DNA from: a virus | DNA: 44,115 bases | Reading direction: 5' to 3' (one strand) | Virus record (IMG/VR): IMGVR_UViG_3300022756_000002 | Location: 1 to 44,115 of that record | Shown: in pieces, positions 505-44,115 of the stretch | Layout: each line of letters opens with the position of its first letter | Numbering within the stretch: position 1 is the first letter of the stretch | The notes under the pieces: model-generated | Database searches by the model: none | Told to the model about the DNA's origin: nothing | What the model saw: the letters and a program-made list of their open reading frames with translations, nothing else | Translations under genes and position numbers: made by a program

Positions 505-882
505 TTAGTTTGAGAGCACGATCAGCACTTTTGCATCGTCATCATCCGGATGGACTTCCGGCTCCACTCTGTCCAGAGCAATTTTGATCGCTCCGTTTCG
601 AGCATGCCGGTCCACTTTCTCCTCGCTGTCTTGCCGGATGTTGTCCACCAAAAATTCCGCCAGCTCTCCCATTCCCATTTTATCCAGAAAATAATCTTTG
701 AAGTGTTCTTCGAGTGCCTGGTAGGGCTTTGTACGCTCTATTACCCGGTTAGTAGGACTGTAGCCGGCGTCGATCGCCGCTTGCCTTTTCGAGACGCCTC
801 GCTGCACCGCCAGGAAGTACTTCCCTACTTTGGTGTTGAGTGGCGGTATTTTACTTTTTTTTGATATCGGTTGTATTCCCAT
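505..882 (-). CDS. Terminase small-subunit-like HTH protein
   Basis: 125 residues. The central part (GVSKRQAAIDAGYSP, about residues 29-43) followed by a helical region and a late NGAIKIALDRVEPEV segment matches the usual pattern of Terminase_2-type small subunits, which bind the packaging site and recruit the large subunit. The family call is from pattern recognition. It is unusual that the gene sits at the far end of the early operon, away from the large terminase at 37-39 kb, so a role as another DNA-binding HTH protein is possible. It overlaps the upstream gene by 32 nt, and no clear Shine-Dalgarno precedes ATG 882. Confidence 0.6.
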   Translation of the reverse strand: MGIQPISKKSKIPPLNTKVGKYFLAVQRGVSKRQAAIDAGYSPTNRVIERTKPYQALEEHFKDYFLDKMGMGELAEFLVDNIRQDSEEKVDRHARNGAIKIALDRVEPEVHPDDDDAKVLIVLSN

Positions 883-6486: not shown

Positions 6487-6636
6487 TGTTACCACTTTAT
6501 TGCACGCTGTTAAAAATAATAAAATCGACCCAGTCATTATATACCTGTGTCTACATAGATGTCAATGGAGGTGTGAATAACCATTTTCCTTGGGGAATTT
6601 CTTCCCGCATTTTTAGTTCGGATTTTGAGTTCGCAT

Positions 6637-6761
6637 TTTTTTAAAAAAATTCTCTTTATTATTATTATACTTCTTGTATTCTTGTACTTCTTATACTTCT
6701 TATACTTCTTGTTTGTGTTATGTTGTGGTTATGTTGTGGTTATGTTGTGGTTATGTTGTGG
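6637..6761. repeat. Iteron array with AT-rich stretch, candidate origin
   Basis: Four exact tandem copies of an 11-bp unit (TTATGTTGTGG) span 6718-6761, starting right after the TAA of the winged-helix gene. Next to them are five imperfect TATACTTCT-type units (about 6667-6712) and an AT-only stretch around 6637-6670. Iterons beside an AT-rich unwinding region next to replication-protein genes is the classic layout of a replication origin. Confidence 0.6.
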
Positions 6762-7112
6762 TTATTTCTTCCTGTGGATAGTGGGGACAAGTTGATAATT
6801 TTTCCAATTAAGTATTGTAATTAAACGGAATTTTGAATTCGTCTTTTGTTCAATCTGATGTTCCATTTCGAAGAACTTTAGAATTTTCTGAACAGTATTT
6901 TGGTTTATTCTCGTTTCCATACTAAGCTTTCTACGCCCTGTAACGAACTGTCCCTCCCTCACGATGATTGTTTTATCGTTCCATAAAAATTCCTCCGGCG
7001 CATGATTTACGGAGAGCAGAAGATGCACCCAGAGATGAACGTACCGAGAATTTTTATAGAATCCTTTTTTTTTAAATTTCCTATGAAGTTTTACCCACCC
7101 TTCTTTATCCAT
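6762..7112 (-). CDS. Winged-helix replisome-organiser-like protein
   Basis: About 116 residues from ATG 7112. MDKEGWVKLHRKF, then HLWVHLLLSVNHAP, then EGQFVTGRRKLS and FRLITILNW match the N-terminal winged-helix part of phage replisome organisers and DnaD-like helper proteins, which bind the origin and load the helicase. The longer frame to 7184 adds a poor N-terminus. The C-terminus is short, so a helicase-contact domain is missing or supplied by a partner. The gene's stop touches the 11-bp iterons, a likely target. Confidence 0.7.
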   Translation of the reverse strand: MDKEGWVKLHRKFKKKGFYKNSRYVHLWVHLLLSVNHAPEEFLWNDKTIIVREGQFVTGRRKLSMETRINQNTVQKILKFFEMEHQIEQKTNSKFRLITILNWKNYQLVPTIHRKK

Positions 7113-7253
7113 GCAATAAAAAAACCCCATTGCAAAGTGGAGGCCGAAACAGCTAGCAAATAACTGTTGGAGGTTTCCCCCCACTCCACTTAGCGATAGA
7201 GTTTTTAGTTTGCTATTCTTTCGACGAATATATTATATAAAAAATCGAAAAAA

Positions 7254-7940
7254 TCAATCGTGGGGAAAACCCGAAGGATCCGGATCATCCGTCTTTTCCT
7301 TGAGAATCCCCAAGCCTTCGAGCTCGGCCCGGAGTTGAGTAAATTTGTTTGTATGTTCACCCTCGGGTTCTTCTCCCGCATCTGCATTGTGCATCTCAGA
7401 TTTTTCTAATGAAAAATCACTCATCTTACTTATCTTACTTATCTTACTATCCTCGAGAACTCCTAGAGGTCTCTTAGAGTTCTCTTGGAGTTCTCTAAGA
7501 GCTGATTTTTCTATGTTTTTTAGCTCTGAGAGTTCTCTGAGAGCTCTCTTAGAGTTCTTCTGGAGTTCTCTTAGAGTTTCCTTAGAGCGCACTAAAGGGT
7601 CATCTTTTTTGAAATATTTTTTGTCCTGTAGCACCAGAAGGCTTTTCTCTTTTTGATATTCAGTTGCCTTAAACCAGCGTTTATCAAGCCAGTTATTTTT
7701 ATTCCAATCGGTGATTACAATTACGCCTTGTCCGCAGTGGATAATGTAACCTTTATTTTCCAGTTCAGTTAAATCTTCCTTGAAAATTTTATAAGTATTC
7801 AAGATACCCCGAGGGAAAATAAAACCCTCATCATCGGCAAACATACCCAGTAAAAAATATGCCGCAATATTGGAGGGGGAGAGATCCATGAAGTCATAGG
7901 TCTCTATTATATTTCTGTCGAACATTCGTTTCGATGCCAA
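7254..7940 (-). CDS. Phage replisome organiser / replication initiator
   Basis: 228 residues starting at TTG 7940, preceded by AAGGAAG. The N-terminal 100 residues (KRMFDRNIIETYDFMDL, YFLLGMFADDEGFIFPR, VIVITDWNKNN) match the winged-helix domain of Gram-positive-phage replication initiators. Residues about 122-160 contain RELQKNSKR-type repeats arising from tandem DNA repeats, and the rest is low-complexity and acidic. It is the first gene after the late-region terminators, so it probably heads the early operon. No replicative helicase or primase is encoded, so host enzymes would be recruited. Confidence 0.75.
   Translation of the reverse strand: MASKRMFDRNIIETYDFMDLSPSNIAAYFLLGMFADDEGFIFPRGILNTYKIFKEDLTELENKGYIIHCGQGVIVITDWNKNNWLDKRWFKATEYQKEKSLLVLQDKKYFKKDDPLVRSKETLRELQKNSKRALRELSELKNIEKSALRELQENSKRPLGVLEDSKISKISKMSDFSLEKSEMHNADAGEEPEGEHTNKFTQLRAELEGLGILKEKTDDPDPSGFPHD
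7459..7585. repeat. Direct and inverted repeats inside the initiator gene
   Basis: Variants of CTTAGAGTTCTC and GGAGTTCTCTAAGAG recur at least eight times, often as inverted pairs, within the initiator coding sequence. Repeats inside a replication gene can be the origin itself, as in lambda O. They also explain the repetitive RELQ/NSKR peptide. Confidence 0.6.
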
Positions 7941-19930: not shown

Positions 19931-20827
19931 TTAAATATTCGTATCTAAACTTTTTACATTGGCTATCAAATTAGTATTGATAGATTTTATATTCGCAATA
20001 GCATTAGTATTCAGAGATTTTATATTTGTCGGTCCTGAAAGGAGTACTACCGTAAATGTTCCGCTGCCATTAAATGTGTGAATTGTATTCGCCCCGTTAG
20101 TAGTTATTGTTCCGCCTGTGCAAGTTCCGAAATTTGCTGTTACATAAGAAATTATTACTACGCCTGAACCTCCATTACCTCCATTGGCAGTTCCACCACC
20201 TCCTCCGCCTCCTCCCAGATTGGCTGTTGCATTTGCGCCGGCGCAAGGGGCAGAACCAACTCCGCCGATACCTCCTCCCGCATTTGATGTTCCATTTGGA
20301 CAACCACCTCCGCCTCCTGCGTAATTTACATTCACTCCGGTAATTGTTGAACCTACTCCCGTTCCACCTGTTCCTCCTGTATTGGATGCTCCGTTTGCTC
20401 CTGCACCTGCCGAAGTTCCTCCTCCTCCTCCCGATCTCGCTGTACTTGTATTTGAACCGAAACCAGTACCTCCACTAAATGTTCCCGTGCCTCCAGCGCC
20501 AGCTTGACCCGAAGTTCCTCCCGTACCTCCACCGCCTCCGCCACTAGCCGTATTAGAACCGGCCACGAACTGTCCGCTTCCGCCTCCTCCGCCACCTTTA
20601 GAAGTCAAACCTAAAGCGGTTGTATCTGTTCCATTTACACCATTAGCGGCTGTAGAAGTAGCGCCTCCTCCACCTCCTCCTACCGTAATGGTATATGCCT
20701 GAGCAGTTACAGTGACTGTAAGATTCTCCTGAACTTGTCCGCCTCCTCCGCCACCGCCTTGACGAGTTGTATCTCCTCTACCGCCTCCTCCACCTCCTCC
20801 TATTAATAATGCTCGGACTGTTGCCAT
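19931..20827 (-). CDS. Glycine-rich repetitive tail protein
   Basis: 298 residues dominated by GGGGGG tracts and short GGTG repeats (residues about 10-220). It ends in a repeat tail of NIKSLNT / NLIANVKSLDT units. Such glycine-rich domains resemble phage fibre-tip glycine-rich domains (polyglycine-II sandwiches) that bind the receptor. The coding DNA is correspondingly biased and creates long shadow frames. It is likely a receptor-contacting or fibre-linking subunit. Confidence 0.6.
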   Translation of the reverse strand: MATVRALLIGGGGGGGRGDTTRQGGGGGGGQVQENLTVTVTAQAYTITVGGGGGGATSTAANGVNGTDTTALGLTSKGGGGGGSGQFVAGSNTASGGGGGGTGGTSGQAGAGGTGTFSGGTGFGSNTSTARSGGGGGTSAGAGANGASNTGGTGGTGVGSTITGVNVNYAGGGGGCPNGTSNAGGGIGGVGSAPCAGANATANLGGGGGGGGTANGGNGGSGVVIISYVTANFGTCTGGTITTNGANTIHTFNGSGTFTVVLLSGPTNIKSLNTNAIANIKSINTNLIANVKSLDTNI

Positions 20828-23222: not shown

Positions 23223-23735
23223 CTACTTACTCGCAAAGATGCGCACCAGATGCGGATCTTCTCCGTGATATTTAGACAACCCGGTGCCAATTTCTTTTTT
23301 GAGAATTTTAAATTTAAAATGTTTCAGATCTTTCAATAATTGCTCCACCTCCACATAATTTCTTTCATGATTCGGATAGACTTTATAGGCTCCTTTATCG
23401 CCTGTGGTGCGCGCTTCGATGAAAATATATTTCTTGGCCCATTTGAGGATTTTTAGCTGCAGATCCCGTTCGATACAGTGCCAGAGGAATCTGGCATAAA
23501 CATATTTCGGGCTCTTATTTTCTTTAATGTGTTCCTCGATCGTCTGATCGTAAACCGAATCGATTCCGTCCGCGTTAATTTTATTGTTGACAAAAAAATT
23601 CGTATCGCGGTAATTTCCGCAGCCCAGATCAATGAGCTCTCCGTTTTTCAAGTAGGGAAGTACCTCGCGCGCGAAAGTGCTTTCGCGCAGCGTTAGCTGT
23701 TTCTTGTAAAATTCTTTCCAATAATTTTCATTCAT
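23223..23735 (-). CDS. SAM-dependent methyltransferase (class I)
   Basis: 170 residues. GELIDLGCGNYRDTNFF (32-48) is the SAM-binding motif I with its GxGxG-like turn. DGIDSVYDQTIEEH follows as motif II, then FLWHCIERDLQLKILKWAKK and FIEARTTGD. It shares ATGA with the LicD gene and ends the cassette transcript. It probably O- or N-methylates a sugar in the glycan. A nucleic-acid or protein substrate is not excluded, because no target domain is visible. Confidence 0.75.
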   Translation of the reverse strand: MNENYWKEFYKKQLTLRESTFAREVLPYLKNGELIDLGCGNYRDTNFFVNNKINADGIDSVYDQTIEEHIKENKSPKYVYARFLWHCIERDLQLKILKWAKKYIFIEARTTGDKGAYKVYPNHERNYVEVEQLLKDLKHFKFKILKKEIGTGLSKYHGEDPHLVRIFASK

Positions 23736-24298
23736 TGCGGATGTCTTTGCGGATATTGAGGAGCATGAACGCCCTTGCGCGGGGTCTTCCAGTCGCCATA
23801 GACATAAGTAAGATATTCCTTGACCGGGCCCGGAACCAGGAAAGTCTCTCCGTGCAATTTTATTTTATCCGGCTTTTCATAAAATTTTGCCAGATTGCTG
23901 ATAAGTTTAGTCCCGCTTGGCAAGGGCGTGCAAACCATTTCCTCGCCCTCCAGCTTATAGAAGAAAATGGAGAACTTAAAATTTCGCTCACAGACTATTA
24001 TGCCCGTTTCGCCATCTCCATTATATCCGATCCCGCCAGGCTCGATCCGCCCGAAAACATTGAAACCGATATCTTGCGGCTTAAATCCAAGATCGATTAA
24101 TGTCCAGCCGATCGCCTTGCGCGTCTTGTAGTCGCAAGTTTCTACCACATCAAAATCAACATCGTCGTCCCAAGGAATGAAGTCCCCGTCTCGCACCGCT
24201 CCGAGCACCGCTCCGAATGAAAGAAAAATTCTCACTCCGTGTATTTTGAAAGCGGATAAAATATCCCGCACGTCTTTCATTATTTTTTGATTGTTCAT
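23732..24298 (-). CDS. LicD-family phospho-substituent transferase
   Basis: 188 residues. SFGAVLGAVRDGDFIPWDDD, with further acidic residues (DVDF), is the nucleotidyltransferase metal motif of the LicD family. VPGPVKEYLTYVYGDWKTPR is its usual C-terminal signature. LicD enzymes move phosphocholine, ribitol- or glycerol-phosphate from CDP carriers onto glycans. Together with the HxGH cytidylyltransferase in the same operon, this predicts a CDP-linked donor. It is coupled by ATGA overlaps to both neighbours. Confidence 0.8.
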   Translation of the reverse strand: MNNQKIMKDVRDILSAFKIHGVRIFLSFGAVLGAVRDGDFIPWDDDVDFDVVETCDYKTRKAIGWTLIDLGFKPQDIGFNVFGRIEPGGIGYNGDGETGIIVCERNFKFSIFFYKLEGEEMVCTPLPSGTKLISNLAKFYEKPDKIKLHGETFLVPGPVKEYLTYVYGDWKTPRKGVHAPQYPQRHPQ

Positions 24299-25011
24299 AT
24301 TCTCGAATTATATCCGCGAATGAATTCCACCAGCTCCCGCATCTCCCCGGGATCCGCGCTCCCGGCTTGATCGCAGCCGGGAAGCCTTTTATCCAGAGTG
24401 AAATGCTTTTCAATGATTGTCGCTCCGCGCCGCACCGCCTCCTTGGCCCACTCTATGCCGATACTGTGATCCGAAAAACCGGAAAATCCACCATTCCTAA
24501 AAACTTTCGGAAATATTTCCTCGGTGATTGTTGCCGGATATTCGGAAATGCACCAAAGAAATTCCGCGTTCTTTATTTCAGGAATCGTATCTCCTTCTTT
24601 AAGCATACCGAGTGAAGCGATTATTGGTTTTCCGGTATTCTCCATCGCCCTGATTGTTTCCTTATCGTAGATGCTTCGGCTCGCGATTTTATGTCTCAAC
24701 ACCGCGACTTCTTCCAGCCAGCTGACCCGCTTTGGATCGAAAGCGCTCGCCATGAATTCTATGCCGACCTTCTTGCAATATTTCGCCAGTTCCTTGACTT
24801 CTTTCTTATCCAACTGGCACATTTTTAGTTCCATATATACCGGGTCATCCGCTGTCATTATCGTGTCGATGTCATAACACTGGAATTTTACCGCGTCAAC
24901 GCCGCACTTTTTGGCGGCGTCAATCTGCCGCTTCATGTGCTTCATCGAACCATTCGCGTTGTGCCCGCATTCGGCAATCGTCAAAACTTTATTTGTCGTA
25001 TCTTCCGTCAT
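24295..25011 (-). CDS. neuB: NeuB-like nonulosonate (sialic-acid-type) synthase without SAF domain
   Basis: 238 residues. TIAECGHNANGSMKHMKRQI, VDAVKFQCYDIDTIM, FMASAFDPKRVSWLEE, FSDHSIGIEWAKEAVRRG and IEKHFTLDKRLPGCDQAGS are the classic NeuB TIM-barrel motifs, which condense a hexosamine with phosphoenolpyruvate. Family members are normally about 340 residues with a C-terminal SAF (antifreeze-like) domain, and here the protein stops after the barrel. It could be a reduced enzyme or rely on a partner. A CMP-sugar synthetase two genes upstream in the transcript matches the pathway. Confidence 0.8.
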   Translation of the reverse strand: MTEDTTNKVLTIAECGHNANGSMKHMKRQIDAAKKCGVDAVKFQCYDIDTIMTADDPVYMELKMCQLDKKEVKELAKYCKKVGIEFMASAFDPKRVSWLEEVAVLRHKIASRSIYDKETIRAMENTGKPIIASLGMLKEGDTIPEIKNAEFLWCISEYPATITEEIFPKVFRNGGFSGFSDHSIGIEWAKEAVRRGATIIEKHFTLDKRLPGCDQAGSADPGEMRELVEFIRGYNSRI

Positions 25012-25082
25012 ATTTTCGAATGATAAAAGCCCTGGGCTTCACTATGCTGTAAAATCCTTTTAAGAATGCTTTAAGAAATTTC

Positions 25083-25763
25083 TTAAACTTCAGTAATTTT
25101 TCCGTTTTTGATTTTTTCATCGGCTACTTTTTCCCATTTTTTCCTTTCATCCGGATCATTAGTCATATTATTTTCATGTTGCCGGTACTTATAGAAGGGG
25201 AGCGGAAGATGATAACCGGGCCATTGGCGGATGTAGCGGCGCAAGAGATCGAAGTCCTCGGCATTGCGCAATTCTTTATCATACAAGCCAAGCGGCTCCA
25301 AGTAACTCTTACGAAATAGTATCCCCGCTCCGTGGCGAAATAGCAAATCCGGAGTAGTCAGATTTACCCGTTCAATGAAATTCTCCTCCTTGTCCACCCG
25401 ATAATGGTCCCCGTAAATGAAACCGAGATCTTTGTTGTGCTGTAAAATTTCCGTCATAAATAGAAGCGTGTGTTCGGAAATATAGTCATCCGAATCCACC
25501 CGGATAATAAATTCCCCCAGCGCGTTGCGAATGCCGACATTGCTCGCTTCACCCACCCCGACATTTTTTTCCAAGAAAATGGAAGTTATTTTTCCTTCAA
25601 AGCTATGAATTGTTTCCCGGCTGTTGTCCGTCGAAGCGTCATCCACGACAATTACCTCGAATTTATTTTTATCCATCGACTGTTTCAGGCAGGAGCGTAT
25701 AGCCCGGCCGACATAATCTTGATTATTCCAATTTGTCACTATCACGCTAGTGCTAATGCTCAT
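25083..25763 (-). CDS. Family 2 glycosyltransferase
   Basis: 226 residues. SVIVTNWNNQDYVGRAIRSC, EVIVVDDASTDNS and FIIRVDSDDYISEHT carry the nucleotide-sugar-binding Asp and the DxD (DSDD) metal motif of GT-A-fold GT2 enzymes. LRNAEDFDLLRRYIRQ holds the usual late ED acceptor-side pair. No membrane segment is present. It overlaps the CMP-sugar synthetase gene by 11 bases. The donor and acceptor are unknown, but it is probably part of the surface glycan assembly. Confidence 0.85.
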   Translation of the reverse strand: MSISTSVIVTNWNNQDYVGRAIRSCLKQSMDKNKFEVIVVDDASTDNSRETIHSFEGKITSIFLEKNVGVGEASNVGIRNALGEFIIRVDSDDYISEHTLLFMTEILQHNKDLGFIYGDHYRVDKEENFIERVNLTTPDLLFRHGAGILFRKSYLEPLGLYDKELRNAEDFDLLRRYIRQWPGYHLPLPFYKYRQHENNMTNDPDERKKWEKVADEKIKNGKITEV

Positions 25764-26307
25764 CGTACTGATTCTGATCCAGTGCTTCGTAATAATCTTT
25801 CTCTTCGTGAATATCGATCGAAGTGTCTTCTATTTTTATCACCGGTTTGGGATTATAGAAATCCTCGTAAGCCAAGAGTCGCTTGCGTTCAATGCCCCAG
25901 ACGCTTCCATAAATCTTGCCATTCGGGTGCACGGTAATCACTTCCTCGCAGAATTCCATCGCATGCTTCACTTTTTTAATTATTAGAGGATGGATAGTAG
26001 GGCTGTTGGCCTGCACCGCGATGATTCCATCGATATCTCCCATAAATTGCACCGCGTGCTTGTAGACCGGGATATTCGGGGTTAATCCACACAACTCCTT
26101 GGGTCGCTTGATAGTGATAGCGCCGCGGCTATCCGCCCAGTCCAGGATGTCTTCATTCTCGGAAGAAACATAAACTTTGTCGAAAATTTTCAGGCATTTT
26201 TTTACATTTGTCAGGAACATCGGTTCTCCATTGAAAGGCAAAGTATTTTTATTCTTTAAGCGTCCAGAATCAGCTTTGGCGATTATTAAGGCGCTGAGTT
26301 TCTTCAT
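25753..26307 (-). CDS. CMP-sugar (NeuA-like) cytidylyltransferase
   Basis: 184 residues. ALIIAKADSGRLKNKNTLPF matches the nucleotide-binding loop of CMP-sialate and related synthetases, though the usual ARxGSKR(L/I)P reads AKADSGRLKNKN. The later VYVSSENEDILDWADSRGA and AVQANSPTIHPLIIKKV are also family features. It would activate the NeuB product with CTP. It overlaps the end of the HxGH cytidylyltransferase gene by 38 nt. The altered first Arg leaves some doubt about activity. Confidence 0.75.
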   Translation of the reverse strand: MKKLSALIIAKADSGRLKNKNTLPFNGEPMFLTNVKKCLKIFDKVYVSSENEDILDWADSRGAITIKRPKELCGLTPNIPVYKHAVQFMGDIDGIIAVQANSPTIHPLIIKKVKHAMEFCEEVITVHPNGKIYGSVWGIERKRLLAYEDFYNPKPVIKIEDTSIDIHEEKDYYEALDQNQYDEH

Positions 26308-26710
26308 AGACTCTTTTTCTCAAATTCGAACTTGAATAATTGTGATCTCTTTTATTATAGACAATTTTTATCGGCAGGTCATCTCCGGTGAAGCGTTTTC
26401 CGCGCCAATCCTCTCCGACGAAACGCACATCCGGCAAAATATGCCGCAAGAGAAAATATAAATCATCCTCCGTGTCGTAAGTCCACAATTCTTGCACATA
26501 GCGGCAAGAGAGCAGCCTCATCTTCCGCTCCTCGAGCGTCTCAATCGGTTTATTCTTTTCGGGCCGGTCGATAGTGGGATCGCTTTGCAGTCCGACGATC
26601 AGATAATTACACTTTCGATAAATCTCTTGGAGCATCAGTAAATGGCCACAATGTAAAAGATCGAACGTCCCGCAGGTAAAGCCTCTAATTTTTTTCCTGA
26701 TATTTCTCAA
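26270..26710 (-). CDS. HxGH cytidylyltransferase (TagD/RfaE-C type)
   Basis: 146 residues. GFTCGTFDLLHCGHLLMLQE contains the HxGH motif (His20-Cys-Gly-His23) of glycerol-3-phosphate and related cytidylyltransferases. SDPTIDRPEKNKPIETLEER and the ISTxx-like tail are degenerate. It probably makes a CDP-alditol or CDP-sugar donor, which LicD would use. The start overlaps the HAD gene by 26 bases, and translation is probably coupled. Confidence 0.8.
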   Translation of the reverse strand: MRNIRKKIRGFTCGTFDLLHCGHLLMLQEIYRKCNYLIVGLQSDPTIDRPEKNKPIETLEERKMRLLSCRYVQELWTYDTEDDLYFLLRHILPDVRFVGEDWRGKRFTGDDLPIKIVYNKRDHNYSSSNLRKRVYEETQRLNNRQS

Positions 26711-27347
26711 GGATTTTCAGAATGTTCTTCGTATCAGCCGGCACCGTTTCCATTACTCCCACGACTGAATGATCATTACCGCCTTCCTGCAGATTGTCTC
26801 CGAAAAATACGCACTCATTTATTATTTTATATTTTTGGTGCCGGTGGGTATACAATTTTAAATTAGCGCCTTTGGTTCCGTTCTTCGACAGGTAATCGTA
26901 ACAAGTCGAGCCGGCTACTACCACTATCAATTCTTCGTCAACGAAAGGAATGTCTTCCAGGATTTTGTTTCGTATTTTTTTATCCGGATCAAAAAATTTT
27001 TTCACGTCTAGTGGAGCGTTGTGACCGGTAAAGCTGTAAGAGATTTGACAACCTCTATCTTCCGTGTCCCCCTTATATTTGAATTTTTTCCTTACTTTAT
27101 TAATGTGATTATAGATTCTATATTTCTGTGCTCTCCCCATATAACTGATCCATTTGTCGGTATCATTGCCGTTCTGCGCCAGAATCTTGCAATTCACGCC
27201 GTGAAGCTGTCTCTCCATCTGCTGCCTCTGCGCGCCGGAGATGACGTAGACATTCGGCAGTTTGTTAAGAGCATCGCGGATAGCATCGGATACCGGCATT
27301 TTCGATTCCGCCAGAGTCCCGTCCAGATCAAAAAAAAAGTGTTTCAT
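26685..27347 (-). CDS. HAD-superfamily sugar phosphatase / phosphomannomutase-like
   Basis: About 220 residues from ATG 27347 (ATGA overlap with the dehydratase stop). FFFDLDGTLAESKMPVSDAI gives HAD motif I with both Asp. YVISGAQRQQMERQL is motif II-like. FFGDNLQEGGNDHSVVGVM is the closing GDxxxxGGND metal motif of Cof/PMM-type (HAD-IIB) enzymes. It probably removes or moves phosphate on a sugar intermediate. Whether it is a phosphatase or mutase cannot be told from sequence. Confidence 0.8.
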   Translation of the reverse strand: MKHFFFDLDGTLAESKMPVSDAIRDALNKLPNVYVISGAQRQQMERQLHGVNCKILAQNGNDTDKWISYMGRAQKYRIYNHINKVRKKFKYKGDTEDRGCQISYSFTGHNAPLDVKKFFDPDKKIRNKILEDIPFVDEELIVVVAGSTCYDYLSKNGTKGANLKLYTHRHQKYKIINECVFFGDNLQEGGNDHSVVGVMETVPADTKNILKILEKYQEKN

Positions 27348-28339
27348 AACCATCGATCGTTCAAGAGCGTCCAATGAACATAACTTTTAAGAGATTTCTG
27401 CAGATCTTTCGGCGGAACCCAGCCGAGTTTCTTCATCTTCGCGCCGGAGAGAGCATATCTTCGGTCATGGCCTGGCCTCTTTATATGTACGTCGTCGAGT
27501 TCGTAAACGAGCGGTTTCATCAGAATGTCCGAGATCATCTTGGCAATGTTTAAATTATTTACTTCCTTTTCTCCGACAATATTGTATCGGTCCGGCCTGT
27601 CCGAGAGGGGATACATTGCCGGCTTAATTTTAATAAGAAATAAGATCGCGTCGGCCACATTTCTGGCGTGAATATAAAAGCGCGAACCGATTTTATTTTT
27701 GTCTCCATGCACGGTTATTTTTTCATCCTTCAAGATTTTTCGGATGCACATCGCCAGATATTTCTCCGGATCCTGGCGTTCTCCAAAGATATTCATTCCA
27801 TTGGTGATCACCACCGGCACTCCGTAAGTTCGCCAGTAGGAGATGGCGATAGCTTCCTGGCAGGCTTTGCTGGCCGAGTAGGGATTGGACGGAATGATGG
27901 GAGACCACTCCGGCCAATCCACGCCCTCCGGAGCGGGTCCGTATACCTCATCCGTACTAAACTGCAGAAAAATTTCCGGTTTCGCTTCCCGGGCAAATTC
28001 CAACATATTTAGCGCCAAGTTCACATTATTTTTTATGAAAGGTACCGGATCGGAGATACTGCGCTCCACATGCGAGTCCGAGGCAATGTTTACGATGCAG
28101 TCTATTTTGCCTATTCTTTTTTTCGTAATTTCCGTCAAAGGGGAGGAAAGATCATGGGTGATAATGGTCACTCTTCCTTTATTGGTTATGTAGTTCACAT
28201 CCTCCAATATCCTCTCCGGAGTTCCCTTGTGCTTCCAGGAGGCGATGCCGACAATTTCAAAATCGGTATTTTTCAACAAGTGGCTCATCACATGCGAGCC
28301 GACAAATCCTCCGATGCCGGTTAAGAGTACGCGCTTCAT
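27344..28339 (-). CDS. NAD-dependent sugar dehydratase/epimerase (RmlB-like)
   Basis: 331 residues. TGIGGFVGSH (7-16) is the Rossmann NAD loop. FSTDEVYG (128-135) supplies the Thr-Asp-Glu seen in 4,6-dehydratases. YSASK (154-158) is the catalytic Tyr/Lys pair, and RPGHDRRYAL a late nucleotide-sugar contact of RmlB-type enzymes. It probably turns an NDP-hexose into a 4-keto-6-deoxy intermediate, possibly for the nonulosonate or an amino sugar. Its start and stop overlap its neighbours by ATGA. An epimerase is the alternative. Confidence 0.85.
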   Translation of the reverse strand: MKRVLLTGIGGFVGSHVMSHLLKNTDFEIVGIASWKHKGTPERILEDVNYITNKGRVTIITHDLSSPLTEITKKRIGKIDCIVNIASDSHVERSISDPVPFIKNNVNLALNMLEFAREAKPEIFLQFSTDEVYGPAPEGVDWPEWSPIIPSNPYSASKACQEAIAISYWRTYGVPVVITNGMNIFGERQDPEKYLAMCIRKILKDEKITVHGDKNKIGSRFYIHARNVADAILFLIKIKPAMYPLSDRPDRYNIVGEKEVNNLNIAKMISDILMKPLVYELDDVHIKRPGHDRRYALSGAKMKKLGWVPPKDLQKSLKSYVHWTLLNDRWL

Positions 28340-29703
28340 TTTATTTTCTTTTTTCTGATTACTTTATCGTCTGATAATTGCTCCATCACCTGATAAGTGT
28401 AATCAAAATTAAGACCATATTCGCAGCAAAGCGCCGCAAGAGATCTTTTTCCGTCCATCGAATAGAAAAAATAATCATAAGAGAGATTCACCTGCGGGCT
28501 CTCCGTCTGAATCTTATAGCGGCTGCGCATCAAGGGACCCTTCCATTTTCGGACCGGAATATAGTCCTTCTCCCAGATCTCGATTATCTTCAAAATCGCC
28601 TCGCCCGTTTCTTTAATCCTCTGGTATTTGATTATCTCCGGCTTGTCCTTATTGGTGTGATATTCGTTATAGGGCCAGCGAGAGAGCAAAAGTCCCGGAA
28701 TTCCGATCAGCGGATCGTTAAAGGCATACTCGTCGCTCCCGATAGAATTCCGGAACATTCCCTGGCGATACGATTGCCCCATTCCCTGAATGGCTACATG
28801 CGCCACCCGATAAATGCGGTGTTCCATATCCCATGGCTTCTGCATCATAAGCGTATTTTCGTTTCCGCAGGCATCAACCGCGATCATAAAATCCACTTTG
28901 GAGAGATCCTGGGTGAGCGCGTAGGCATTCGATCCGATGGTTTCCGGACAGAAAATTATTTTCACCGTATGCTCGCATTTTATTTTAGTAGCCAAGTCCA
29001 CCAAGCAGGCTACCGCCGAGAGATTGTCGTTCGCCTGGAAGGGATGATCGAGATGGGCGAAGAGCAGTATCTCGCGCTCGCTCACCCCCGGTATGGTGTG
29101 CACCCCGAGTTTCATCACGCCGGGGACATATTCGGTATCGATGAACACTTCGTAATCTCCCTCTTCCAAAGCATCCTCGTATTTCGGAGTATAGTCGATT
29201 CCTTCGATCTGCACTTTGCCGACAGAGGGATCGAAATCTTTTAAGGCCGGAAGACAGAGTCCGTCTTCGCAGACGATTTCCCCCTGTTTGTTAAAAACGA
29301 GCTTTCTGCGCACTTGGAGCTTTGGCACGCAAAAACCCCAGTCTTTATCATAGTATTTGAATACATAAGGCACCGCTTCCGGATCGTCTTCGCTGTAGTG
29401 CCAGTGCTTGCGCAACTCGTTCAATTCCATGTGCGCGTGCTCCGGCAGAGATCCCACCACCAGGCTCATCGGTTCCTTCGCGTAATCGATTATTTTTTCT
29501 CCCTTCGGGTTCTTGACCCAAGCCTCGCGCACGATCCATTCATCCGGCACGGTCCAGGTTCCGATGGGGGTTCCGCTTTTAAATTCAAGAATCTCCAAAG
29601 GCATTAAGTGCTTGAGATATTCCAGGCGGTTGTCGTATCCCTCGCCGAGGAGACAAGCGTTTAAGGGAGTGAGATTTTTTATCAGTTCTTCCAGTGGATT
29701 CAT
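28336..29703 (-). CDS. Aminopeptidase-like protein (DUF4910/DUF2172 type)
   Basis: 455 residues. Residues about 210-380 hold an M28-like zinc site: FAHLDHPFQANDNLSA (about 215-230), FCPETIGS (about 252-259), SDEYAF and NEYHTNKD (about 356). The N-terminal 200 residues are beta-rich with W/Y (WTVPDEWIVREAWVKNP), and the C-terminus is winged-helix-like. Proteins of this type recur in bacterial surface-polysaccharide clusters, where their true substrate is unsettled. Here it sits between the glycerophosphotransferase-like GT and the dehydratase, coupled to both. Confidence 0.75.
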   Translation of the reverse strand: MNPLEELIKNLTPLNACLLGEGYDNRLEYLKHLMPLEILEFKSGTPIGTWTVPDEWIVREAWVKNPKGEKIIDYAKEPMSLVVGSLPEHAHMELNELRKHWHYSEDDPEAVPYVFKYYDKDWGFCVPKLQVRRKLVFNKQGEIVCEDGLCLPALKDFDPSVGKVQIEGIDYTPKYEDALEEGDYEVFIDTEYVPGVMKLGVHTIPGVSEREILLFAHLDHPFQANDNLSAVACLVDLATKIKCEHTVKIIFCPETIGSNAYALTQDLSKVDFMIAVDACGNENTLMMQKPWDMEHRIYRVAHVAIQGMGQSYRQGMFRNSIGSDEYAFNDPLIGIPGLLLSRWPYNEYHTNKDKPEIIKYQRIKETGEAILKIIEIWEKDYIPVRKWKGPLMRSRYKIQTESPQVNLSYDYFFYSMDGKRSLAALCCEYGLNFDYTYQVMEQLSDDKVIRKKKIK

Positions 29704-30653
29704 AAATTTTCGATGACATTTATTATTTCCTGCAACGGATTTTCTATATCCGTTCCTCCGTCTAAAATGGAAATTCGTTTACGCTCCGCCGACAATTTTT
29801 CCGGATTTCGAAGAGTCCTCATTATTACTTCGTTTAATTTTCCCAAATCTTTCACTCGTTCACAAGCATCGGAATATTCTCGGTGATATTCCCGATAGCG
29901 TTCATCCCCGTTGCAGGCTTTCGGCACCCAGATGTCGGCTATAACTACCGGAATATCAAGCACCTCCGCCAAGAGCTCGAAAGTAGACTCCGATACGGCC
30001 ACTAAAACGTCCGCGGTAGAGAGAACTTCGGCGCAAATTTCCAGATGCCCCGCTTCCTTGCGGTCGCTCCAGACCGGGTTCGGATAAGTATTCTCCGAAT
30101 GTTCGCCCAAGAGAAGTTTCGAAATCACCTTGACAGTTTTTCCCTGAAATTTAACGCCGTCGAGTTTTTCTAATTGGTTTTTAATAATGAAATTTTCGGC
30201 TACGTCGATATCCCAATGCTCCGGACTCCAGATTATATTCCATCCTTCGTGTGGGACTCTCGGTTTCAAGTGGCGAAATATCGTCGTGCCAGTCAGCCGA
30301 ATGCGTTCTGCGGGCACTCCACAGGAAGAGAGCCGGATAACGTCATTGATTCCCCAAGAACAGACAACATCGGAGATAAGATCTTCGTTGAAAGGTGGAA
30401 AAATACGCGAGGTTCCGCGCCGGCCATGCTGCATCAGGATGACGCGTTTGCCCGCATCTTTGGCTTCTTTTATCCAATCTCTCCAGCCACCGAGTTCCGT
30501 CTCATTCCAGACAATAATGGTATCTGCGGCCTTCCAAGTAGATTTTTTACCATCGATAGGCAGCAAGGTATGTCCTCGCTTGATAAGTTCCTCGGCCACA
30601 TCGATGAGCAAATTATTAAAGTCAAAGAGAAGAATTTTCATAGATTGCCTCAC
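29700..30653 (-). CDS. GT-B-fold glycosyl/glycerophosphotransferase-like protein
   Basis: 317 residues. The start is either GTG 30653 (GTGA overlap with the GT4 stop) or ATG 30641. VILMQHGRRGTSRIF, IIWSPEHWDIDVAENF and the C-terminal STADVLVAVSESTFELLAEV resemble CDP-glycerol glycerophosphotransferases and UDP-GlcNAc 2-epimerase-like GT-B folds. The SESTFELLA stretch is the typical donor-phosphate helix. With TagD-like and LicD-like neighbours, an alditol-phosphate transfer role is attractive but inferred. Confidence 0.65.
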   Translation of the reverse strand: MRQSMKILLFDFNNLLIDVAEELIKRGHTLLPIDGKKSTWKAADTIIVWNETELGGWRDWIKEAKDAGKRVILMQHGRRGTSRIFPPFNEDLISDVVCSWGINDVIRLSSCGVPAERIRLTGTTIFRHLKPRVPHEGWNIIWSPEHWDIDVAENFIIKNQLEKLDGVKFQGKTVKVISKLLLGEHSENTYPNPVWSDRKEAGHLEICAEVLSTADVLVAVSESTFELLAEVLDIPVVIADIWVPKACNGDERYREYHREYSDACERVKDLGKLNEVIMRTLRNPEKLSAERKRISILDGGTDIENPLQEIINVIENL

Positions 30654-31804
30654 CAGAAATCTTTTATTTTATCCATTATTTTTTTCTTTTGATTTGAAAC
30701 CGGCGGACCATCCGATTCTCTCTGGCATGCCTTTTCCCATTCAAGTCCGATCGATTCCAAACTATAATTATCGGCAACGAATCTTTTCTGCTCATTTAAT
30801 ATTTTTTCCCGAAATTTCGCATCCGTAATCAATTTCTCGAGCTTTTTATACCAATCATCAAATGTATTTTTAGCTTTGTAATTGACGCATTCCGCGTAAG
30901 GAGTTACATCGGAAGCCAGACAGACCGTACCTACGGCCACATATTCCAGAAATTTGATATTAGATTTTCCCCGATTGAATTCGGTGTCCTCGAGTGGCGC
31001 CAGTCCGATATCAAAATCCGCCCGGGAAAGAACCGATGCATGCAGTTCGGGAGGCATAAACGGAATATGCCACATGCGGATGCGTTTCAGCTGGGCGTAG
31101 AAATCCAGCGCGGAGCGAAAATAGGCATTCTTCTCCGGCTGCAGGTTCATGGACAGATATTTCTGATAGGCATACATGGCCGCTTCCATCGGCTCGCCGG
31201 TAATTCCGTAGATGGTAAAAACGAAGTCGTATTTCTCCGAGAGCTTGTCGATAACTTCTCCGATCAGCTGCAAATCTTTCCAATGGCTGGCCGCTCCCAT
31301 GTAACCGATAATCAAATTTCCTTCATGCTCATGCGGGCGCTCCCTGTATACATCATTTATATCCACTCCGTTCGGAGCGATAAAAATGGGTTTCTTGAAA
31401 TACTTTTTGAATTTCTTGGCGAGCACAGCAGAAGGCGTGATTACCGCGTCGCACTCCTTGATCAATCCTTCGTATTGATCTTTAAGCGCGTTGCTCACAT
31501 TCGCCGAGGGGTTGTCTTTGGCAACTTGCCAAAAATCATCATCCATGTCATAGAGCACTCTCTTTCCAAGCCTTCTGTACTCCCGCATCCATTTGATCGG
31601 ATCGAGCTGCGAAGGATAAGTTCTGCCAAAAATCACCGTATCGGGCCATTCCAGGAGATTCTTCGGTATTTCTGTTCCGAGCGCCACTTGTTTAATCCCA
31701 TGGCCGCGCTTCTCCAGTGCGCGGCTGGGCGTCTCCACCCGGTGGAACCAGATGCCACTCTGAAAGGACAGCACCGAATCGGTTATGAAGGTTATCTTTG
31801 ACAT
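30650..31804 (-). CDS. Family 4 glycosyltransferase
   Basis: 384 residues. Two Rossmann-like halves are visible. The N-half has ITFITDSVLSFQSGIWFHRV and VLYDMDDDFWQVAKDN. The C-half has GYMGAASHWKDLQLIGEVID and the donor-site LAPLEDTEFNRGKSNIKFLE, ending with the EYVAVG helix. These are GT4 (glycosyl transferases group 1) features. It is the first cassette gene. Its first 113 nt also code, in another frame, for the tail of the HNH endonuclease. Soluble; the substrate is unknown. Confidence 0.85.
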   Translation of the reverse strand: MSKITFITDSVLSFQSGIWFHRVETPSRALEKRGHGIKQVALGTEIPKNLLEWPDTVIFGRTYPSQLDPIKWMREYRRLGKRVLYDMDDDFWQVAKDNPSANVSNALKDQYEGLIKECDAVITPSAVLAKKFKKYFKKPIFIAPNGVDINDVYRERPHEHEGNLIIGYMGAASHWKDLQLIGEVIDKLSEKYDFVFTIYGITGEPMEAAMYAYQKYLSMNLQPEKNAYFRSALDFYAQLKRIRMWHIPFMPPELHASVLSRADFDIGLAPLEDTEFNRGKSNIKFLEYVAVGTVCLASDVTPYAECVNYKAKNTFDDWYKKLEKLITDAKFREKILNEQKRFVADNYSLESIGLEWEKACQRESDGPPVSNQKKKIMDKIKDFW

Positions 31805-37132: not shown

Positions 37133-38851
37133 TTACATATACTGAAATGATTTGCGGCGCACCGGGCGGGTTCGAGCCACTTCGATTTGCATAACTTTCT
37201 GCGGAGAGAATTCAAAGTAGGCGAGGAGTGTGCTCATCACGTCATCGTCATGAAATCCGCGGGCCGCGCCCGCGCCCTGCTGTGTGGCATCGTCATTCCA
37301 CAAAAAAGTTTTCATCTGCTCAATCGTTTTTCGGTCAAAAATTTTCACCGATTTATTGCGCAGCAAAACTTGGAAATGGGAGATGAGCTGCTGCTTGGTG
37401 TCCCAGCTCATCCGAAATCCGAGCTTCTCCGTTTCGATGTCCTGTTTATACTCCAGCTGTTTTCTCCGATAAACTTTTAAGTCACGAATCTCCCTAATCA
37501 GAGCCGCGCCGGCGGAGTTGCTTTCCGGAATTATCAGGCACTTGTTGTACATGTAATGCAGCACCTTGACTTTATCCGAAAGTCCTGTTATTGGAATTTT
37601 CCCGTTCCACTTCGCCACCTTGTGTCCGGAAGAAGAAACCACGGAGATGGAGCTCGGGTCGATGATTCCTTCGGAGGGATCCACTCCCATGATGTAATCC
37701 ACTCCCGGCACGGACTCTTCGTAAATTTCACAGCCCTCATGCATGCGGAGCGGTGTGATAATAAATTTTTCCAGCTGCGCGATATGCTCCTTGGCGAACA
37801 CGCTTCCTTTTAAGAGAATGTCCGTGGTCCATTCACCCTTGACGAAACGCCGCACATAATCTTCGCCCATCGCTTCCTGCTTGCGCAGATAATCTTCCGG
37901 CAAATTATCTCTGTTGTCATACATTGACGACTGGTACAATTTGAAGCCCGGCCTAGGATTGGCCACGAAATAATCGTAGGCCCAAAAGTTCGCCGGGTTG
38001 CAAGTCATGTTGCCCTGCCGCACCGGAACTTCCATTCTTCGCAGGCGTGAATTGGCGGCTTCGAAAACTTCGTACTCCACCTCTTCGAGCTGGTCGATGA
38101 AGTAAGCTCCGAGGTTGAGCGATTTTAATTTCTGCTGCGCTTTCTTGATATCGGCGGTTCCTCCGCTCTGCATCGCATCAAGTCCGAATAAAACCACTTG
38201 GCTGCCGTTTGAAAAATTTATCAGTCCGTCTTTGATGCGGTGCTCGTACCAACTCGAGGGAAGCATGGCAAAGAGTTCCGGTAAAATACTTCGATCGATG
38301 TCCGAGAGAGTTTTTCTTCCAAGCAAAACCCGGTTGCCCGGGAAGCACTTCACAAAAAGAATCAGCTTGACATAGAGCGCGCACGATTTCCCGGAACCGT
38401 AACCTCCCGCGTTTAAACAAAAATCATCTTTCAAGTTGGAAATAAATTCGCTCTGGATCGGATTGAATTTATAAACTTTACCGTTGAGTGTAATCTCCTT
38501 AATTTTTTTTCCGGCCAGAAGTTGTTCTCCCAAATGCACCCATTCGCTTTTGATCGAGCCTTCCGGTATTTTTTTTTCCTCTTCTTCTTTTTTTGTTTGC
38601 TCAATCGCTTTATCTAAAATTTTTTTCGCTTCCTCTTGTTCTTTTTTAAAATTATAAAACTCGAGACCTCTAGCTTTTAATTCTTCCTTCATATCTTTGT
38701 CTACGCAATCACGGCTACAATAATTTCCTTTTGTTTTTTTCTGAGCTATTTGTCGCAATTTTCCTTCCTTGCCGCAACCTTTTCTTCGGCAAATATAAAA
38801 AAGCTCCGGGTGCTTTTCCTTCGCCCGCAAATATTTTTCCTGTTCTGTCAT
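37133..38851 (-). CDS. terL: Terminase large subunit
   Basis: 572 residues. The N-terminus adds an unusual zinc knuckle (Cys21, 26, 45, 49) and a Lys/Glu-rich helix. The ATPase follows: GGYGSGKS Walker A (149-156) and YFIDQLEEV Walker B region (about 250-258). The RNase-H-like nuclease carries GVDPSEG with Asp391 and a late DDD cluster near residue 538. It packages DNA into the portal. The extra N-terminal zinc domain is not typical and may bind DNA or a small protein. A terminator stands just upstream, so it probably has its own promoter or read-through. Confidence 0.9.
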   Translation of the reverse strand: MTEQEKYLRAKEKHPELFYICRRKGCGKEGKLRQIAQKKTKGNYCSRDCVDKDMKEELKARGLEFYNFKKEQEEAKKILDKAIEQTKKEEEEKKIPEGSIKSEWVHLGEQLLAGKKIKEITLNGKVYKFNPIQSEFISNLKDDFCLNAGGYGSGKSCALYVKLILFVKCFPGNRVLLGRKTLSDIDRSILPELFAMLPSSWYEHRIKDGLINFSNGSQVVLFGLDAMQSGGTADIKKAQQKLKSLNLGAYFIDQLEEVEYEVFEAANSRLRRMEVPVRQGNMTCNPANFWAYDYFVANPRPGFKLYQSSMYDNRDNLPEDYLRKQEAMGEDYVRRFVKGEWTTDILLKGSVFAKEHIAQLEKFIITPLRMHEGCEIYEESVPGVDYIMGVDPSEGIIDPSSISVVSSSGHKVAKWNGKIPITGLSDKVKVLHYMYNKCLIIPESNSAGAALIREIRDLKVYRRKQLEYKQDIETEKLGFRMSWDTKQQLISHFQVLLRNKSVKIFDRKTIEQMKTFLWNDDATQQGAGAARGFHDDDVMSTLLAYFEFSPQKVMQIEVARTRPVRRKSFQYM

Positions 38852-39766: not shown

Positions 39767-39961
39767 TTACTCTAAAAAGGTAACATATGTTACTTCACAT
39801 TTCTTCCCATTTCGCGCCCATTTAGGCTTCCACCATCCCTTGACAAAAATTCTCCGAATATGAGCGCGATAACCCTGGTTGTGCCTTTTGTAATGCATCG
39901 CACCATGGCAGAACTCAGTGGGCCGGGATCCAGGTGGTGAACCTTGGTCCGTTAGTTTCAT
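39767..39961 (-). CDS. Small basic hypothetical protein
   Basis: 64 residues from ATG 39961. The frame to 40003 would add a poor hydrophobic start. Single Cys, His and many Arg/Lys (HGAMHYKRHNQGYRAHIRRI, VKGWWKPKWARNGKKCEV) suggest nucleic-acid binding. GGGGCAGGCAG stands just upstream of the ATG, a relative of the motif seen before right-arm genes. No family is recognised. Confidence 0.5.
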   Translation of the reverse strand: MKLTDQGSPPGSRPTEFCHGAMHYKRHNQGYRAHIRRIFVKGWWKPKWARNGKKCEVTYVTFLE

Positions 39962-40003: not shown

Positions 40004-40318
40004 TTAACCACTACAATTACACGAAGCGAAAAAACCCTTGTGTTTATTACATATATCAAAAGGGTTATGCTTTGTAACACTTTCTGCTTCTTTTGTAACA
40101 CTTTCCTTTATTTCTGTAACACTTTTAACCTCTTTTGTAACACTTTCGGGCACTTTTTGTAACACTTCTTCACTTTTCTGTAACACTTTCTCACTTTTCT
40201 GTAACACTTTCTCGCCCTTACGATGCAACTTAACCCGGCATACCATCGAACAAGTCTTTGTTTGTGGACGTTTATTAAGTAGAAATTCCCCACAGATGTA
40301 ACACTTTTGTCTTTCCAT
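40004..40318 (-). CDS. Zinc-finger protein carrying a tandem DNA-repeat array
   Basis: 104 residues. The N-terminus has CYICGEFLLNKRPQTKTCSM and VC, a treble-clef-like zinc site. Residues about 33-88 are repeats read as KVLQKSE and then as SVTKE, both produced by one DNA word. The C-terminus holds two more Cys (FFASCNCSG). It is the first gene leftward from the control region, so it could be an early regulator of that region. The repeats may matter as DNA rather than as protein. Confidence 0.6.
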   Translation of the reverse strand: MERQKCYICGEFLLNKRPQTKTCSMVCRVKLHRKGEKVLQKSEKVLQKSEEVLQKVPESVTKEVKSVTEIKESVTKEAESVTKHNPFDICNKHKGFFASCNCSG

Positions 40319-40360
40319 ACTAGAAATGTAACACTTTTCCCATAATTATGTAACAGTTTT
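40073..40360. repeat. TGTAACACTTTT array, ten copies at about 21-bp steps
   Basis: The word starts at 40073, 40094, 40115, 40136, 40158, 40179, 40200, 40297, 40327 and 40349 (the last reads TGTAACAGTTTT). Spacing is 21 or 22 bp in the main block, equal to two helical turns. Copies lie in all three frames of the gene at 40004-40318 and also upstream of its ATG. It is probably a binding array, as in iterons, operators or packaging sites. Confidence 0.85.
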
Positions 40361-40419
40361 GGATTTTCAGTTTGTGCAGAAAAGAAGTAGTGAATTTATA
40401 AAAATGAGTAGATTAAGTT

Positions 40420-40461
40420 TAAATTGCATAGATTTGGAGATAAATTGCATAGATTTCAGAT
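40420..40461. repeat. Tandem 21-bp repeat (TAAATTGCATAGATTT core)
   Basis: The 16-base word TAAATTGCATAGATTT occurs at 40420-40435 and 40441-40456, 21 bp apart. The step equals the TGTAACAC array next to it, which suggests stacked binding on the same DNA face. Confidence 0.65.
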
Positions 40462-40629
40462 TTTTAACCCTTTAAGATCCTGATTTCAGATTCTTAGTGG
40501 TTTCAAGTCATTATTTTAAGTCCTTAGTGGGTTCAGAAGTGTTCTCAGATCCTCAAAATGTGCGAGGGAGTGATGTCATAAATTTAAAAGATTTTCGGAC
40601 TCGGATACGCCCCCCCGTGTCTGTGTCGC

Positions 40630-40658
40630 ACAATAATCATTTTGCGACATAGTGTCAA
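40630..40658 (-). promoter_or_regulatory. Leftward promoter with an embedded operator
   Basis: Read on the minus strand: TTGACA (40658-40653), 17 nt, TATTGT (40635-40630). The inverted repeat TGTCGCA/TGCGACA (40624-40649) overlaps the spacer and -10, so a repressor there would block it. It would drive the first leftward gene at 40318. Confidence 0.5.
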
Positions 40659-40995
40659 AATACCATTGTATTATAAGCGTATTTTGGGAATAAGCGGGTC
40701 TAACAGGCATAATTTGTGCCATAAATGCCCGTTGCCCGTCAATACGCTCCGATTTAGGGGTCTGGACAAACTCCCAAAAACGTGGTCTTGTGCCGTGTAA
40801 TTTAACCTTGACAAAAATTAGAAAAAACCTTGACAAAAAAACGGGAAGAATGGCAGAACACGGACAAAAAAACGGATAAAAAATTCGTAAGAAAAAATTA
40901 AAAAAGAGTAAAACCACGAAAAGAAAAAAATCCTATTCCCTCTTTAGGGCTTTTCTTATCTCTTTATATATAACGCTATTATCCTTGTTATGATG

Positions 40996-41024
40996 TTGAC
41001 ACAATTAAAAACCATTGTGAAATA
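40996..41024 (+). promoter_or_regulatory. Rightward promoter-like site with CACAAT/ATTGTG inverted repeat
   Basis: TTGACA (40996-41001) is followed by a poor -10 (GAAATA, 41019-41024). CACAAT (41000-41005) and ATTGTG (41014-41019) form an inverted repeat between them. It may be an operator-controlled promoter for the right arm, but the -10 is weak. Confidence 0.35.
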
Positions 41025-41150
41025 AGGTTTTATCTTTACATCTAACTGCTAGTATGCTAACCTGTTTCTTGTAAGTAGGTTGGTAGGGTTGCAAAGTAGG
41101 TTAGGCGGTTTTTTAAGAATAGGGGCATAAGCCGTTTTTCTTCCCTCCAT

Positions 41151-41252
41151 AGGGCTTATACGCCTTGTAGAGAGCAGAAAAGCAGAGAAATTAACATAAT
41201 CGCCGACTGCTCGCATTACTGCTTGTCCGTAGTAGTGATGTACATTGAAAAT
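41151..41252 (+). promoter_or_regulatory. Repeated leader, copy 1, upstream of the first right-arm gene
   Basis: The segment carries GTAGAGAGCAGAAAA (41167-41181), an ATCG-containing GAAATTAACATA, a GCTTG and the ending GAAAATATG. A related leader precedes the gene at 43552. The shared order supports ATG 41253 rather than the upstream starts. Confidence 0.6.
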
Positions 41253-43954: not shown

Positions 43955-44115
43955 ATGGAATTATTTATGGAAAAAGAAGAAAAAGCAGAAAAAGAAGAAA
44001 AAAAAAATTCATTGGACGGGGCAGGCAATTTAGTTCCGAACCCGAGAGAAATTATCCGCAAGCATTATCAAGAAATGCAGAAGAAAAGTATGGCGACTCG
44101 GCTGAAGAACGATCC
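43955..44115 (+). CDS. Small protein, 5' part of the gene crossing the join
   Basis: ATG 43955 opens MELFMEKEEKAEKEEKKNS, an acidic/basic helix, then meets the TTG of the GACGGGG motif and continues into the 1-236 part (89 residues in all). A second in-frame ATG at 43967 is possible. No family is recognised. The frame break at the repeat motif argues for a stop-loss fusion. Confidence 0.6.
   Translation, partial: MELFMEKEEKAEKEEKKNSLDGAGNLVPNPREIIRKHYQEMQKKSMATRLKND
43989..44115. repeat. Terminal direct repeat, right copy
   Basis: Exact second copy of bases 1-127. Collapsing the two gives a circle of about 43,988 bp and completes the gene that starts near 43955. Confidence 0.95.

Follow-up and report, generated by a model that had tools for sequence, protein, structure and literature searches.

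At the lambda cosB site, several copies of a phage-specific word, the R sites, lie beside the terminase genes and are bound by the small terminase (TerS), and sites within coding sequences at terminase genes are already known from P22 and SPP1. The stoperators of cluster A mycobacteriophages are built on a short asymmetric word that keeps one orientation relative to transcription. In SPP1 pac, direct repeats span the promoter, the ribosome-binding site and the start of the coding sequence at the terminase genes, and are read by a packaging protein (PMC4737164, PMC6316719).

The window, meaning the whole stretch of 44,115 nucleotides analyzed here (IMG/VR record IMGVR_UViG_3300022756_000002), carries ten copies of a short word at 40073-40360, all on the plus strand and all with the core TGTAACA. 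Copies 1, 2, 4, 6 and 7 (40073..40084, 40094..40105, 40136..40147, 40179..40190 and 40200..40211) read TGTAACACTTTC, copy 5 (40158..40169) reads TGTAACACTTCT and copy 10 (40349..40360) reads TGTAACAGTTTT; the exact 12-mer TGTAACACTTTT is found only in the three copies at 40115..40126, 40297..40308 and 40327..40338 (copies 3, 8 and 9), and TGTAACACTT in nine of the ten. Successive steps are 21, 21, 21, 22, 21, 21, 97, 30 and 22 bp. Eight copies fall inside the gene at 40004-40318, where they are spread over three frames: copies 1-4 are read as ESVTK (SVTK in copy 1), copies 5-7 as KVLQK after the 22-bp step that shifts the frame to VLQK at copy 5, and copy 8 in the third frame as QKCYI, where the Zn ribbon begins, while copies 9 and 10 lie upstream of the ATG at 40318. 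An earlier, sequence-only reading had described this array, and its ten coordinates, the 21-22-bp steps of the main block, the three frame readings and the pair of copies preceding the ATG all proved correct.

Elsewhere in the genome TGTAACA occurs only once, at 20138 on the minus strand, so that 10 of its 11 occurrences sit within one 288-bp locus rather than being dispersed across promoters; shuffled sequences give an expectation of 2.6 for the whole genome. A blind 8-mer scan ranked the array locus first genome-wide, with eight copies of GTGTTACA versus five at the next site. The ten copies lie on one helical face at 10.5 bp per turn (R = 0.76, versus 0.31 at 10 bp and 0.30 at 11 bp, periods that were compared post hoc), a phasing seen in the window and in one relative, L201, and not general across the array family.

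The host gene (40004..40318, minus strand) is the first of a leftward late operon and encodes a 104-aa protein composed of a Zn ribbon (CxxC...CxxxC, N-terminal sequence CYICGEFLLNKRPQTKTCSMVC), the array-coded linker and a short Cys/His-rich C-terminus. AlphaFold (AF2) models the ribbon confidently (pLDDT 87-94 in the window protein, 87-96 across models) and predicts the array-coded segment to be disordered, at residues 41-93 in the window (40040..40198, minus strand; pLDDT below 50) and residues 35-76 in L300. Judged by these models, the protein is permissive exactly at the position of the DNA signal, and the gene would tolerate the array because the part that the array encodes is a flexible linker. 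The ribbon resembles phrog_6975, mycobacteriophage gene 1 (E 2.9e-5 for the window, 2.9e-9 for L290); the N-terminal CxxC...C...C ribbon of that family is present in the window protein, whereas its helical C-terminal domain is absent, with the short Cys/His-rich tail instead. In several mycobacteriophages gene 1 sits between the genome end and the large terminase gene (TerL), and cluster N phages have cohesive termini with 13-base 3′ overhangs (PMC6544188), so that the ribbon gene there adjoins cos. Gene 1 was rejected as an array carrier, the ribbon being all that the two have in common. The ribbon sequence had no match in the PDB, Foldseek returned only insignificant YacG/MYND/FCS-like ribbons, a search of NCBIfam gave nothing useful, and no HNH catalytic motif was seen in the array-bearing ribbon genes. 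In L279 (MW202692.1), L287 and L288, RecA carries a Zn ribbon of this family at its N-terminus; the RecA gene of L279 is near TerL and has a TTTACGCTAA array upstream.

The window ends in the same 127 bp with which it begins (1-127 = 43989-44115), an exact terminal repeat that identifies it as a circular genome, complete at 43,988 bp. Contig ends were rejected as evidence of genome ends, both the window (127 bp) and L305 (80-bp overlap) being circular. The leftward operon runs from the array gene through a Dam methylase gene to TerL (37133..38851, minus strand; phrog_2, E 9.3e-30), which lies 1.2 kb downstream of the array, and on into the structural genes. A weakly matching small-terminase-like gene (505..882, minus strand; phrog_641, E 0.0011 over 29 residues) is located elsewhere, adjacent to neither TerL nor the array. 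Upstream of the array by 270 bp is a sigma-70-like promoter match, TTGACA-17-TATTGT (40630..40658, minus strand; 10 of 12 positions, a consensus match only), the −35 element of which lies within a GACA-TAG-TGTC dyad; the surrounding 860-bp intergenic region (40361-41222) holds, besides this dyad, the paired repeats AAATTGCATAGATTT (21 bp apart), CCTTGACAAAAA and GACAAAAAAACGG. A perfect palindrome, GTAACATATGTTAC (39780..39793), lies 280 bp from the array and consists of two half-words pointing outward; it may be unrelated to the array. The genome also contains a tRNA-Ile gene with anticodon TAT (277-366), which may mark an attachment site or serve as a phage tRNA, and, in the tail/late region, a block of sugar and glycosylation genes (23223-31804) whose ORF translations include NeuB-like, nucleotidyltransferase, epimerase and glycosyltransferase proteins.

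Close relatives of the window are few, namely one near-identical contig, and no DNA-level similarity to it was detected in 50,697 phage records. Searches by protein and by DNA word nevertheless showed that at least 12 other lineages share the design, a small Zn-ribbon gene that bears a phage-specific word directly after the ribbon (TTAGCGTAACA, TTAGCGTTC, TTAGCGTGTCAAA, TTAGCGTTACA and TGTTACAGATAA among the lineages). A scan for helically spaced TGTAACA returned 95 stretches, versus 31 for the reversed word, and among the 95 was L201, whose Zn-ribbon gene has four TGTTACAGATAA-type copies in its leader (one of them inverted) and three right after the ribbon, and is followed by TerL. Scanning with the ribbon alignment yielded Zn-ribbon genes with different words in the same place: TTAGCGTAACA in L290 and L285, TTAGCGTTC in L300 and L293, TTAGCGTGTCAAA in L296, GGAACGGATAA plus TTAGCGTTCC in L286, and GTACGAGATAA in L289. 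More Zn-ribbon genes, in L325, L335, L393, L404 and L431, were recovered by a protein-blind DNA scan with TTAGCGT; L393 shares with the window a pair of copies around the ATG as well as a short tail (DICKEH..., compared with DICNKH... in the window). The first in-gene copy after the ribbon lies at +78 to +112 from the ATG in every case, and within each record the word is almost confined to its one array locus. As a check, the sequence-only reading had asked whether the word and its 21-bp step persist in related phages across changes of frame, and would have taken a kept peptide with a lost word as refutation; the outcome was a third one, in that neither the peptide nor the exact word persists, and what does persist is the architecture, with a DNA word specific to each phage.

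Its statement that the DNA rather than the peptide is kept holds up well. When the window gene was recoded synonymously with the codon usage of the phage, TGTTACA appeared 0.38 times on average and at most four times in 20,000 trials, compared with eight observed, and synonymous nulls failed for each of the main words tested, in relatives as well as in the window; the minor CGTTCC word of L286 was borderline (P 0.02). In-gene changes of frame occur in nine lineages (the window, L286, L289, L293, L300, L325, L335, L404 and L431); TTAGCGTTC, for example, is read L-A-F at the ribbon end and as S-V-P or S-V-L thereafter. The word shared by L290 and L285, TTAGCGTAACA, lies in L393 on the opposite strand of the gene and gives TVTL instead of SVT, and in the window, L201 and L393 copies extend into the non-coding leader. 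The in-gene copies of L285, L290 and L296 all share one frame, so that in these three the argument for DNA is synonymous identity only. Frame changes, the strand flip and identical synonymous codons, in the window and in independent relatives, thus strongly support selection acting on the DNA, with the protein linker tolerating the array.

The setting of the array genes points to DNA packaging. In 11 relatives (L201, L285, L286, L290, L293, L296, L300, L325, L393, L404 and L431) the array gene lies between TerS, or a candidate for it, and TerL. Both terminase genes have PHROGs matches in L285, L286, L293, L300, L393, L404 and L431; the TerS call in L201, L290, L296 and L325 is one of position or weak similarity (67% identity of the L296 protein to that of L300), and the TerL of L290 had no PHROGs match. 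L335 starts within the array gene, with TerL next, and in L289 the array gene follows TerL. All of these loci had been found via the Zn ribbon or the DNA word alone, the terminase never being a selection criterion. Among the functions offered by the sequence-only reading, namely origin iterons, an operator or a packaging site, the last is the best supported because of this placement of the module between TerS and TerL in 11 other lineages, and the first two are less likely. Comparative sequence analysis favors, as the best explanation, a recognition array of the pac/cosB type that overprints a gene of the packaging region, given its position at or next to terminase genes (1.2 kb from TerL in the window), its single locus per genome, its phage-specific word and the precedent of SPP1 pac; it is credited with about an even chance of being right.

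In the mechanism that we infer, as regards protein binding, the binder and the packaging role alike, the array would be a cis-acting, multi-copy protein-binding site laid over the leader and disordered linker of the Zn-ribbon gene, which is the first gene of the late, DNA-packaging operon. The word copies would collect a protein, whether the Zn-ribbon protein, the small terminase or both, and the resulting nucleoprotein patch beside the terminase genes would mark phage DNA for packaging. Several observations weigh against a packaging array: the word does not follow the terminase, the small-terminase-like gene of the window is not adjacent to the array, the ribbon genes beside cos in actinophages are without an array, and relatives of the window's TerL (L129-L144) show no array near TerL, for which reason they were rejected as array carriers.

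The first of these observations bears on which protein would read the word. L293 and L300 have TTAGCGTTC in common and unrelated TerS and TerL families; conversely, L296 and L300 are 67% identical in TerS and 83% identical in TerL, yet their words differ. Its lack of co-variation with the TerS family weakens the case for binding by the cognate small terminase, and because the word tracks neither TerS nor TerL, the Zn-ribbon protein, which is the constant partner of the array, becomes a serious candidate reader. An apparent covariation between ribbon residues and word (KRxTA with TTAGCGT and KRxDA with TTATC-type words, that is, T versus D beside the third Cys) first looked perfect but is a weak lead only, since both word halves are present in L290 and in L431, and L286 has a mixture of the two. 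It is possible, if still rather doubtful, that the packaging site is recognized by the Zn-ribbon protein, as a factor overlooked until now, and that the stretch of its gene encoding the flexible linker doubles as the array to which it binds; protein and array would then form a self-contained cassette with a fast-changing word, moving between phages independently of TerS and TerL.

A regulatory operator is the alternative that survives best and is somewhat unlikely. Here the Zn-ribbon protein or another regulator would bind the array and, much as at stoperators, control its own gene and the late operon from the leader and from the beginning of the first gene. Leader copies around the start codon in the window, L201 and L393 are consistent with such control, as are the promoter-like site 270 bp upstream in the window and the linkage of the array to the Zn gene rather than to the type of terminase. 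TGTTACA arrays also occur directly before TerL, at the head of the terminase operon, in the leader of an HTH gene with weak TerS similarity in L037 (4163-4240) and L101 (2045-2114). In L285, L290 and L404, however, the start of the Zn gene overlaps the end of the TerS gene, which places the array within an operon with no obvious promoter there, and the word is held at one locus rather than being spread over several promoters, as an operator network would be. A classical operator is less likely because in most relatives the array falls within the operon, roughly 80-200 bp past the start of a tightly packed gene.

Less probable again is a replication origin, a second origin or a partition site, at which an initiator or ParB-like protein would bind the copies as iterons. 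The repeats are iteron-like in their single orientation on one helical face, a ParB_N protein is encoded in the window, direct repeats are present at both origins of SPP1 (PMC6316719), and in other phages TGTAACA forms arrays in replisome-organizer genes (L019, L192, L212) or, close to primases, inverted arms that flank AT-rich cores (L109, L152). The window, however, has its own iteron module at 6.6-7.6 kb (6606-7578), with five TTGTGGTTATG units of 11 bp each, a Phage_rep_org_N (replisome-organizer) match at 6762-7184 (E 0.0013) and CTCTTAGAGTT iterons inside the next gene, 7254-7940; its word differs from that of the array, so one initiator would not read both. This is the only replisome-organizer match in the window, and the array stands instead in the late-operon Zn-ribbon gene, neither at nor in an initiator gene with an AT-rich unwinding region; the arrays of relatives are likewise at terminase genes rather than replication genes. 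The separate iteron/replisome-organizer module is the reason for ranking origin iterons lower.

An RNA-level element, in which repeated GUGUUACA motifs in the late leader would be bound by an RNA-binding protein, agrees with the constant orientation of the window word relative to transcription but is highly improbable, as L393 has the same word on the other strand, orientations are mixed in L404, no Rfam match was found and folding is no stronger than in shuffles (z 0.55). Equally remote, and already largely refuted, is a peptide repeat or neutral micro-satellite, that is, a disordered SVT/VLQ linker spread by local duplication with DNA identity reflecting recent copying: the linker is of low complexity and disordered, and the in-gene copies of L285, L290 and L296 are all in frame, but frame and peptide are not conserved between the copies of the window, which occupy three frames, and the frame changes of nine lineages, the flipped strand of L393, the untranslated leader copies, the non-homologous spacers between perfect words and the synonymous-codon nulls all speak against it.

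The scans also met repeats in other contexts. TGTAACA triplets in viral contigs were mostly TVTP/NVTG repeats of structural proteins with steps in multiples of 3, and were set aside, as were Bacteroidota genome loci with TGTAACACTT arrays (L162-L165). Two of the latter, the Chitinophagaceae MAG contigs L163 and L165, have TGTAACACTTC arrays in 21-bp steps that read LQSFLRCY/CNTSKIE in several frames, with L163 near a transposase. Inverted TGTAACA arms were observed in L152, L109 and L117 (also L193, L208 and L218), near primase genes and with AT-rich cores in L109 and L152, and these loci are origin-like elements of another phage class. Iterons of 21 bp or 10-11 bp lie inside replisome-organizer or initiator genes in L019, L192, L198, L205 and L212 and at the ACAATGT loci L255, L268 and L277, and one viral contig, L053, has TGTAACACAATA repeats in seven clusters across 14 kb.

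A recurrent Zn-ribbon gene with its own overprinted, fast-changing site array was not found in the literature searched, Pfam, NCBIfam or the named PHROGs. The cassette of Zn ribbon and site array by the terminase genes is a concrete candidate for a missing specificity factor, and its natural word variants among phages form a testable set. Beyond this, it clearly illustrates how a DNA signal can be overprinted on a disordered protein linker, one word recurring in several frames and on either strand.

Compared with known systems, the array shares with the stoperators a short asymmetric word in a single orientation relative to transcription; stoperators, however, are dispersed over the genome, whereas the array word is at one locus. 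HNH proteins beside cos, a packaging component, are similarly small zinc-binding proteins encoded next to the terminase, and some HNH families (phrog_1271) share the ribbon, but no HNH catalytic motif was seen in the array-bearing genes. Lambda O and SPP1 gene 38/oriL likewise have a site array overprinted on a flexible part of a gene with changing frames, whereas the array gene and its neighbors here are packaging genes and a separate module of the lambda O kind lies at 6.6-7.6 kb. Like lambda cosB, the array consists of a phage-specific word in several copies beside terminase genes; unlike cosB, it has no identified cosN-like cleavage site, its word does not follow the TerS family, and it lies inside an ORF. 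In SPP1 and SF6 pac, too, direct repeats extend over promoter, ribosome-binding site and coding start at the terminase genes, but the host of the array here is a Zn-ribbon gene rather than TerS, and where the SPP1 boxes are few and long, this array is made of more copies of one short word.
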